Shown here: piece by piece, positions 18,371 to 54,981 of the stretch
Layout: every line of letters begins with the position of its first letter
How positions within the stretch are numbered: position 1 is the first letter of the stretch
Source of the DNA: Candidatus Bathyarchaeota archaeon A05DMB-4
Lineage (GTDB): Archaea > Thermoproteota > Bathyarchaeia > Bathyarchaeales > SOJC01
DNA: 64,000 bases
Assembly: GCA_019685575.1 (NCBI GenBank)
Contig: JABFQO010000005.1
Coordinates: 62,001-126,000 of the forward strand
Reading direction: 5' to 3'
Made by a program: the position numbers and the translations under genes
The notes under the pieces: model-generated
Told to the model about the DNA's origin: nothing
Seen by the model: the letters and a program-made list of their open reading frames with translations, nothing else
The model's database searches: none

Positions 18371-18449
18371 TGGTAGCGGGGGGTAGATTTGAACTACCGA
18401 TCTCTGGGTTATGAGCCCAGCGGGTTAAACCTGGCTACCCCACCCCGCT
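18371..18449 (-). tRNA. Initiator tRNA-Met (anticodon CAT), CCA encoded
   Basis: Read on the minus strand, the acceptor arms AGCGGGG and CCCCGCT pair fully and make an A1:U72 pair, the archaeal/eukaryotic initiator hallmark. The anticodon stem-loop is CTGGG CTCATAA CCCAG, with the three G-C pairs typical of initiators. The T arm GGTAG TTCAAAT CTACC is complete. The discriminator A is followed by encoded CCA (18371-18373). No intron is seen. The tRNA body is 18374-18449. Confidence 0.95.
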
Positions 18450-22351: not shown

Positions 22352-22483
22352 GGTCTACTCCCTTCGCATGAGATTACTGTGATGTGTTGTATTCAATTTT
22401 AACATTTACCTAATAAGCGTTAACCTTTAAACACCCCTAACCACGATAGCCCACAGAGAAAAACAAACCCATAAAACAATACA

Positions 22484-22490
22484 TTTAAAT
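22484..22490 (+). promoter_or_regulatory. Box A (TATA) element for the QueT-like gene
   Basis: TTTAAAT within ACATTTAAATCC is a good archaeal box A. Transcription would start about 25 bases downstream, near 22509-22512. That is exactly where the structured leader begins, so the hairpin would be the first thing transcribed. Confidence 0.55.
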
Positions 22491-22509
22491 CCAAAAAACA
22501 TAACTGGGC

Positions 22510-22598
22510 ATGTATGGCGGGTGAGTGGGGTGCCTCCCCACCCGTTCCGCCATGTTTAGGAAATATAAACCCCGGGCGTGTGGGAGGTGAAAGAAGGT
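22510..22598 (+). promoter_or_regulatory. Structured 5' leader, candidate riboswitch or translational attenuator
   Basis: A perfect outer stem ATGGCGG (22514-22520) with CCGCCAT (22547-22553) encloses an inner stem GTGGGG (22525-22530) with CCCCAC (22536-22541), loop TGCCT. The strand CCTCCCCAC (22533-22541 region) is also complementary, with one bulged C, to GTGGGAGG, which contains the ribosome-binding site of the following gene. Two exclusive folds, one masking the ribosome site, are therefore possible. It does not match the preQ1, TPP or fluoride aptamer cores that I know. Ligand control is inference. Confidence 0.5.
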
Positions 22599-23294
22599 TT
22601 GAATGTTAAAGATTTGGCGTTGGCGGCTATCGTTGCGGCACTTTATGCTGTGCTTGTAGTGGCTTTGGCTGGGATTAGTTTTCAGTTGGTACAAGTAAGA
22701 GTGGCGGATGCTTTGATTCCTTTGTCTATTGTTTTGGGGTGGCCGGCAGTGGTGGGAGTGACGGTTGGTTGTGTCATTAGTAACGTGGTGACTCCGATGC
22801 CCAGCGTGCTCATAGACATCACTTTCGGCGCGACTGCGAATTTTTTCGCAAGTGTGTTGGCTTGGAAAATCGGCAAACTGAAGTATCGAGGTGTTTTGGA
22901 TGCGGGTGTGTCTTTCGTTCTCGTTGCCATGCTTGCCAGTTTGTCGCTCTTTTCTTGGACAATGCTTCACACGGGTTTCTTTGGTGGTCCATGGTTTACG
23001 ATTGCAGGCTTGGAGTTCGTTAATGGTGCCTTGAATAGTGTCTTTTTCGTTTTGTATCTGTTTATCCTCGTGTGGGTGGCGGTGCATTTCAGAATAGAGA
23101 GCAGAGTAAACGATTTCGTGGGTTGTCTGGCGGCAGCGGTCACCGTGACTTTCGTGGTAGGCACATATTTAGCGTGGCTCACTGGGATGGAGCTTTGGGT
23201 TTGGTGGCTCGGCATAGGCGCGGGCTCGCTGATTTCCATCTGTGGAATTGGCTACTTGTTGCTTCAAGTTCTCAGAAGAATAGAAATCCGTTGA
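22599..23294 (+). CDS. queT: QueT-family transporter (ECF S-component, queuosine/deazapurine precursor uptake)
   Basis: The 231 residues have six membrane helices. The first two carry AALYAVLVVALAGISFQLVQVRVADAL, which contains the VRVxxAL segment typical of QueT (PF06177), and VVTPMPSVLIDITFGATANF follows near 75. The QueT family imports 7-deazapurine precursors through energy-coupling-factor transporters. In an archaeon the likely use is archaeosine or queuosine-like tRNA modification. GGAGGTGA 8 bases upstream fixes the start at TTG 22599, although the frame is open from 22578. No ECF ATPase or T-component is adjacent. The 75 extra C-terminal residues, with two more helices, are unusual. 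Confidence 0.82.
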   Translation: MNVKDLALAAIVAALYAVLVVALAGISFQLVQVRVADALIPLSIVLGWPAVVGVTVGCVISNVVTPMPSVLIDITFGATANFFASVLAWKIGKLKYRGVLDAGVSFVLVAMLASLSLFSWTMLHTGFFGGPWFTIAGLEFVNGALNSVFFVLYLFILVWVAVHFRIESRVNDFVGCLAAAVTVTFVVGTYLAWLTGMELWVWWLGIGAGSLISICGIGYLLLQVLRRIEIR

Positions 23295-46202: not shown

Positions 46203-46539
46203 GCGGCGGGTCACGGGGTTTCGTCGCTCAGTATTCGCTTGATCCCGCCGCCTCTTTACTCGTACCCGCACCCCCTCGAGCGCTGAACGTCCAGACTTAG
46301 GTTGCTCCCTCCCGGGCCTGGCCAGGTTCGCCTGGTAAACATGGAAACAGACTTCCCTACGGAAGCCGCTCCACGACCGCCAGCCCCGAAGGACGGGTAT
46401 TCATGGTCAGAGGACAGTAGACCACGCGCTCTTAGGCGACTCAGACTCCGCTCTCGGCCCATCTTGTAGAGGGTTTATGGTCTGAGCCTTTTTAGGGGCT
46501 CGTCAGGGGACCCCTAGCCCCCCGCCTAAGACCCGCCGC
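46203..46539 (-). ncRNA. Signal recognition particle 7S RNA
   Basis: The ends pair through GCGGCGGGTC (plus strand 46203-46212) and GACCCGCCGC (46530-46539), forming the long closing helix 1 characteristic of archaeal SRP RNA. Read on the minus strand, the SRP54-binding helix 8 is visible as ACCAGGCGAACCTGG followed by CCAGGCCCGGGAGGGAGCAACC-like sequence with the conserved asymmetric loop. TGGGCCGAGAGCGGAG lies near the 5' domain. The length of about 337 bases is slightly above the usual 300-320. High G+C against an A/T-rich surround supports a structural RNA. It guides SRP19/SRP54-dependent targeting of membrane and secreted proteins. Confidence 0.93.
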
Positions 46540-49313: not shown

Positions 49314-49402
49314 TGGCGCGGGGTGTGGGATTTGAACCCACGCGGCCGTTTCCAGCCACAGACTTAGCAGGCCTGCCCCCTACCAGGCTAGGGCAACCCC
49401 GC
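49314..49402 (-). tRNA. tRNA-Ser (anticodon GCT), CCA encoded
   Basis: On the minus strand the acceptor arms GCGGGGT and ACCCCGC pair. The anticodon stem-loop is CAGGC CTGCTAA GTCTG with anticodon GCT, reading AGC/AGU codons. A long variable arm TGGCTGGAAACGGCCGC marks a class II serine tRNA. The T arm is GTGGG TTCAAAT CCCAC. The discriminator G (49317) is followed by encoded CCA at 49314-49316. No intron is seen. Confidence 0.94.
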
Positions 49403-54904: not shown

Positions 54905-54981
54905 GGGCCGGTCGTCTAGCTTGGTAGGACATTGGCTTTACGAGCCAAAGGTCGCTGGTTCAAGTCCGGCCCGGCCCACCA
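54905..54981 (+). tRNA. tRNA-Val (anticodon TAC), CCA encoded
   Basis: The acceptor arms GGGCCGG/CCGGCCC pair. The D arm is GTCTAGCTTGGTAGGAC, and the anticodon stem-loop TTGGC TTTACGA GCCAA has anticodon TAC. The T arm is GCTGG TTCAAGT CCGGC. The discriminator A (54978) is followed by encoded CCA (54979-54981). No intron is present. A box A lies about 30 bases upstream. Confidence 0.95.

Follow-up and report, generated by a model that had tools for sequence, protein, structure and literature searches.

A conserved RNA element in the leaders of archaeal queT, queC and queE genes, a likely riboswitch for a 7-deazaguanine

A queT gene in the 64,000-nt stretch of Candidatus Bathyarchaeota archaeon A05DMB-4 DNA analysed here (the window) has a leader, at about 22511-22589, that represents a conserved RNA element some 60 nt long. 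We interpret this leader as a cis-acting translational OFF switch for queT and most probably as a riboswitch for a 7-deazaguanine, with preQ0 as the foremost candidate, a likely reading in which ligand binding, the identity of the ligand, the OFF polarity and the two-state switch are inferred. The conserved element, covariation in its outer stem (P1) and in a helix between an anti-Shine-Dalgarno (anti-SD) strand and the SD, the position of its promoter and its gene context are shown.

An initial annotation, made without database searches, had proposed a box A at 22484, a hairpin with a 7-bp outer and a 6-bp inner stem, and a strand complementary to the SD, all of which we recovered at the positions given here (all features on the plus strand). 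The predicted promoter, a TATA-like box A (TTTAAA, 22484-22489), precedes P1, in which AUGGCGG (22514-22520, with the conserved core GGCGG at 22516-22520) pairs perfectly over 7 bp with CCGCCAU (22547-22553). Within P1 lie the near-invariant loop segment GUGAG (22521-22525; U second in 119/119 leaders), whose bases are candidate aptamer positions, the alternative inner stem found by folding, GUGGGG (22525-22530) with CCCCAC (22536-22541; 6 bp), and the pyrimidine strand CCTCCCCAC (22533-22541). The proposed pairing of this strand with GTGGGAGG (22580-22587) held with a correction: contiguous pairing is limited to 6 bp between the anti-SD CCUCCC (22533-22538, overlapping the inner stem) and the SD GGGAGG (22582-22587), and the remaining CAC pairs with GUG (22578-22580) across the bulged U22581 (RNAduplex). 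This helix, P2, continues through CAC-CCG (22539-22544), the CCG pairing with the CGG (22573-22575) of a conserved tail, AAACCCCGG (22567-22575; A and two Cs invariant in 119/119). Two further candidate aptamer bases, UU (22545-22546; second U in 119/119 leaders, first in 112/119), separate P2 from the 3' strand of P1, and the A-rich linker that follows (22554-22568) exceeds that of most relatives (parser link length 17 in the window vs 6 in 71/119). The isolated hairpin is more stable than expected by chance (-25.8 kcal/mol, z = -3.66; 0/200 shuffles as stable) but the full 102-nt leader is not (z = -0.23), so the window sequence by itself is merely suggestive of function and the comparative evidence decides.

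Related leaders are built alike, following the arrangement GGCGGGUGAGUGGG-n-CCUCC(C)ACCCGUUCCGCC-AUAUAA-ACCCCGG-nGUA-(G)GGAGGU just 5' of the start codon. With a covariance model, R1, the element was recognised in 130 of 163 genomes from the order, or about 124 when only matches at E < 1e-5 are counted; for the class the figures were 190 of 257 and, at E < 1e-3, about 182. Other classes of the phylum yielded additional matches. The genome of Bathyarchaeum tardum, known from an enrichment (PMC10477458), likewise has a copy (L286). Scanning a collection of 84,980 species with a DNA pattern returned at least 119 stretches, whose record titles name Bathyarchaeota, Methanomethylicota (Methanomethylicia), Nitrososphaerales and further Thaumarchaeota, together with Ca. 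Njordarchaeum and an Asgard-group MAG. None of these stretches was bacterial, and viral contigs contained no instance of the pattern. The element occupies the same position upstream of orthologues across the class and conservation reaches through AAAnCCCGG as far as the SD; that it is a conserved structured RNA is very likely.

Covariation was assessed in a curated set of 119 distinct leaders. P1 is paired in 98.7% of cells and shows double changes at three pairs, amounting to 30 double-change cells; shuffles gave a mean of 4.3 (maximum 10), and slid registers gave none. Tracing the inner P1 pair on the QueT tree showed 3/3 independent changes to be two-sided, G:C becoming C:G, although this test rests on only those three; several apparent covariations are clade-inherited, and tree-based tests gave no significance for AC:GU or for the outermost P1 pair. 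The anti-SD:SD helix is paired in 91.6% of cells and has 105 double-change cells vs a shuffle mean of 51 (maximum 65), clearly exceeding slid registers. Its compensations include CAUCUCC:GGAGAUG (L097), UUUCCGAC:GUCGGAAA (L156), GCCCUCCU:AGGAGGGC (L132), GCCCCCU:AGGGGGC (L133), CCCUCU:AGAGGG (L126) and CCACC:GGUGG (L101), and on the tree the pyrimidine tract and the SD shift register in concert (~6.1 shifts the same way vs 0.2 opposite; median p = 0.03). The AC:GU pairs covary weakly (11 double-change cells vs 3.6), and CCG:CGG, paired in 97.5%, is too invariant for covariation to support or oppose it. The P1 and anti-SD:SD helices thus both covary while crossing each other, from which we infer, without a solved structure, an H-type pseudoknot of P1 and a long bulged P2 (anti-SD, AC and CCG with CGG, GU and SD) that buries the SD. 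A subgroup of four leaders (L121, L132, L133, L139) carries the tail ACCCCAA instead of ACCCCGG, compensated by an extended anti-SD:SD helix of up to 8 bp, and three of the four have CU rather than UU preceding the 3' strand of P1; this may be a variant of altered specificity.

The initial annotation had envisaged two exclusive folds, a picture that the comparison of leaders refines. An anti-SD:SD helix of at least 5 bp is kept in 117/119 leaders, making the SD pseudoknot the conserved partner pairing, whereas the inner stem, which uses the same strand as P2 and can form in most leaders, is dispensable. We rejected the inner stem as a conserved core, given that 25/119 leaders cannot make 4 bp there. 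By nearest-neighbour energies P2 beats the inner stem in 129/129 sequences (medians -17.2 vs -3.7 kcal/mol), a comparison that leaves out pseudoknot penalties. Where present, the inner stem likely provides the SD-free alternative fold, the two-state switch itself being inferred. The check set beforehand, a search of orthologue leaders for conserved structure, covarying pairs and conserved loop bases, found all three, and the refutation named for it, orthologues lacking such a structure, did not arise.

Gene context, our chief guide to the ligand, links the element to a single pathway. All 112 readable pattern loci have que genes (queT, queC or queE) downstream, singly or in operons, arranged as queT, queT-queC, queC or queE-queC; the other 7 of the 119 were left out because the contig or locus stops too early. 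Of 52 QueC matches in the order, 44 lie on the strand of an element and no more than 600 nt downstream of it, mostly in a queT-queC arrangement, with queC directly after the element in G091 and G092 and at 128 nt in G094. Ten loci from Nitrososphaerales and other Thaumarchaeota have queE first: eight of these ORFs were read and three HMM-tested (L177, L232, L246), the best families all being QueE at scores under the NCBIfam strict equivalog cut-offs, and in the remaining two loci an ORF of equal length stands before queC. Second in the queE-first loci comes queC or a glutamine-amidotransferase-QueC fusion. This association with queC and queE operons, which points to preQ0, adds to the initial annotation. 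Two of the 112 loci open with an unnamed membrane protein, then queC. A membrane-protein family of ~230 aa directly follows the element in L062, L064, L065, L118, L119, L123 and L165, with queC next in two pattern loci; it has no NCBIfam match and no credible Pfam match, and from its position alone could be a deazaguanine transporter.

The gene downstream in the window (22599-23294) encodes QueT, as initially suggested (PF06177, E = 3.8e-24; 86 bits vs a Pfam curated cut-off of 33.7), though no NCBIfam model matched it; whole-genome searches with this protein found relatives in 137 of the 163 genomes of the order. The host genome (94% complete) encodes the archaeosine TGT TgtA (473.6 bits), has no QueD match, and gives only weak matches to QueC and QueE models, which we read as other PP-loop and radical-SAM proteins. 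With TgtA present and no convincing QueC, QueD or QueE, this organism is expected to rely on an imported deazaguanine precursor, as inferred from gene content. The window QueT also contains ~70 extra residues (window 22890-23102, residues about 105-174 numbering from 22578) that are absent from its closest orthologues (165-225 aa), where the tblastn segments 6-102 and 175-235 adjoin each other. Elsewhere the window encodes an archaeal SRP RNA (46204-46538, minus strand; RF01857, 149.9 bits) and tRNA genes at 18374-18449 (minus), 49317-49402 (minus) and 54905-54978 (plus).

In most of 128 leaders a TATA-like hexamer starts 30-35 nt upstream of P1, where hexamer positions peak sharply, as does A+T. 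Archaeal promoters lie at a usual distance from the transcription start, and we therefore place the mRNA start just 5' of the hairpin, an inference from promoter position and not a measurement. This supports the initial proposal that transcription begins right at the hairpin, and argues against a start downstream of it, which had been named as a refutation. A program-called ORF opens at GTG 22578, within the SD helix, and relatives start at a place corresponding to TTG 22599, which we accordingly prefer as the likely queT start codon.

A conserved, covarying 5' UTR structure tied to the genes of one pathway satisfies one of two general criteria for a riboswitch; the other, direct ligand binding that alters gene expression, is inferred here. 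In the mechanism we propose, a plentiful 7-deazaguanine, most likely preQ0 (7-cyano-7-deazaguanine, the archaeosine precursor), would turn queT off: P1 would form, the loop strand CCUCCC-CAC-CCG would pair with the downstream CGG..GUG.GGGAGG, and the resulting H-type pseudoknot would bury the SD, the ligand presumably sitting where P1 and P2 meet, close to the conserved UU and AAAnCCCGG. For the ON state we envisage the loop strand refolding onto GUGGGG or staying open, leaving the SD free. Translational control through SD sequestration is very likely even in the absence of expression data. Direct sensing of a metabolite by the leader is a step less secure, though still likely, as there are no binding, probing or expression data, and SD pairing without a ligand would be constitutive, which speaks against a ligand switch. 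Given direct sensing, preQ0 is likely the main ligand, again without binding data; it is the most economical choice because QueE and QueC make preQ0 and archaea build archaeosine, not queuosine, from it (PMC5372724). We do not exclude preQ1, archaeosine base or queuine.

The rival that survives best, and which remains possible, is a riboswitch that senses a deazaguanine other than preQ0, such as preQ1, queuine or archaeosine base. In its favour, queT of bacteria has been linked both to preQ1 riboswitches and to the transport of preQ1 (PMC11625349, PMC5372724), and a preQ1-I-like leader, described below, replaces the element at seven Bathyarchaeial queT genes. Against it stand the biosynthetic role of queC and queE, the archaeal use of preQ0 for archaeosine with no queuosine (PMC5372724), and the archaeosine type of the TGT in the window genome. 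We regard as unlikely a second rival, in which the leader is no direct aptamer but the site of a regulatory RNA-binding repressor that senses the metabolite or tRNA-modification state and stabilises the SD pseudoknot. The entire sequence evidence is equally compatible with a protein ligand; however, the compact invariant core, the SD within a pseudoknot and the link to the transport and synthesis genes of one compound have the usual look of a riboswitch, and no candidate regulator is at hand so far (none was sought). Very unlikely is an ordinary stable 5' UTR hairpin without switching, whose SD pairing merely tunes translation: the unexceptional stability of the whole leader (z = -0.23) fits it, but the strict deazaguanine-gene link does not, nor do unpaired bases that hardly vary among several archaeal classes. 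A DNA operator without an RNA role, suggested by the P1 inverted repeat right after the predicted start, where an archaeal repressor could bind, and by compensatory P1 changes that would equally preserve a DNA palindrome, is all but excluded: it accounts neither for covariation of the loop with an SD about 40 nt away, in both register and tract length, nor for conservation of the AAAnCCCGG tail.

Returning to the preQ0 riboswitch reading, we lean, by a modest margin, towards a bolder form of it: a new, natively archaeal riboswitch class. Its H-type pseudoknot, which has no sequence relationship to preQ1-I, -II or -III, would bury the SD on sensing preQ0, not preQ1, and would control queT uptake and queE/queC synthesis in several archaeal classes. 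If true, this would be a previously undescribed class in a domain with few known. It would make regulation of archaeosine supply directly testable, would likely provide a preQ0-selective aptamer, would flag genes such as that of the unnamed membrane protein as candidate deazaguanine transporters, and would represent another route to the SD-occluding logic of bacterial preQ1 switches.

The initial statement that the leader has no known preQ1 core held. Rfam riboswitch families, those for preQ1 included, gave no match at E <= 10 in window 22470-22640, RF00522 gave none at E <= 1 in ten related loci, and permissive Rfam thresholds yielded only sub-gathering matches, none to a riboswitch family. 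Because no preQ1 family matches and the downstream genes all serve 7-deazaguanine import or synthesis, the suggested new type of archaeal deazapurine aptamer is the best-supported reading, its ligand binding remaining unproven. A review of the preQ1 families does not mention archaea (PMC11625349), and the open literature searched contained no preQ0, queuine, deazapurine or archaeosine riboswitch phrase; subscription journals lay mostly outside this search and priority is uncertain. The element resembles preQ1-I (RF00522), especially class I type III, in that its inferred fold, a small pseudoknot of the H type, lies in the 5' UTR of deazaguanine transport or synthesis genes and takes the SD into a pseudoknot helix (PMC11625349). 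However, preQ1-I has UC or AC directly before the 3' strand of P1, including the specificity C (PMC11625349), whereas the archaeal element has UU, the adjoining base being U in 119/119 leaders, and differs further in its long loop with a 6-8 nt anti-SD, its AAAnCCCGG tail, its lack of an Rfam match and its archaeal hosts. With preQ1-II (RF01054) it shares a place before queT and a P1-loop anti-SD that pairs with and occludes the SD, but preQ1-II is an HLout pseudoknot with four pairing regions found only in Bacillota (PMC11625349), and the archaeal linker of 6-17 nt has no conserved hairpin, with no room for one at the 6 nt seen in 71/119 leaders, the sequence being unrelated. PreQ1-III (RF02680) likewise occurs before queT and uses an anti-SD:SD helix as expression platform, yet comprises five helices in about 100 nt (PMC11625349) compared with two in about 60 nt for the archaeal element, which has no RF02680 match. 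Membership of preQ1-I, -II and -III was rejected, as the tested defining features of each are not met.

Two further leader types precede archaeal queT genes. One, at L302 and L303 (G135, G129), is ~100 nt long and G+C-rich, has the SD within a terminal stem, is unlike the other two types, and has no Rfam match above gathering. The other, GGUAG-UUUCCG-UAUAUAAC-CUACC-UUAAAAAA-CCGG, precedes seven Bathyarchaeial queT genes (L292-L298, in G029, G047, G046, G036, G039, G063 and G147); it has no Rfam match at E <= 10, and a model built from these seven leaders (R2) found no other strong match in 257 genomes. Genome G063 has two queT genes, with one leader type before each. This type shares with the main element its gene family and host class, a loop CCG with a tail CGG and an A-rich tail, but differs in its P1 (GGUAG:CUACC), in having AC before the 3' strand and in its short loop without an anti-SD, and is much nearer to preQ1-I, which it resembles in that AC, the A-rich tail and the H-type topology. 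These seven leaders are possibly the first archaeal preQ1-I-like elements, and the occurrence of two different pseudoknots on one transporter family supports a shared deazaguanine signal.
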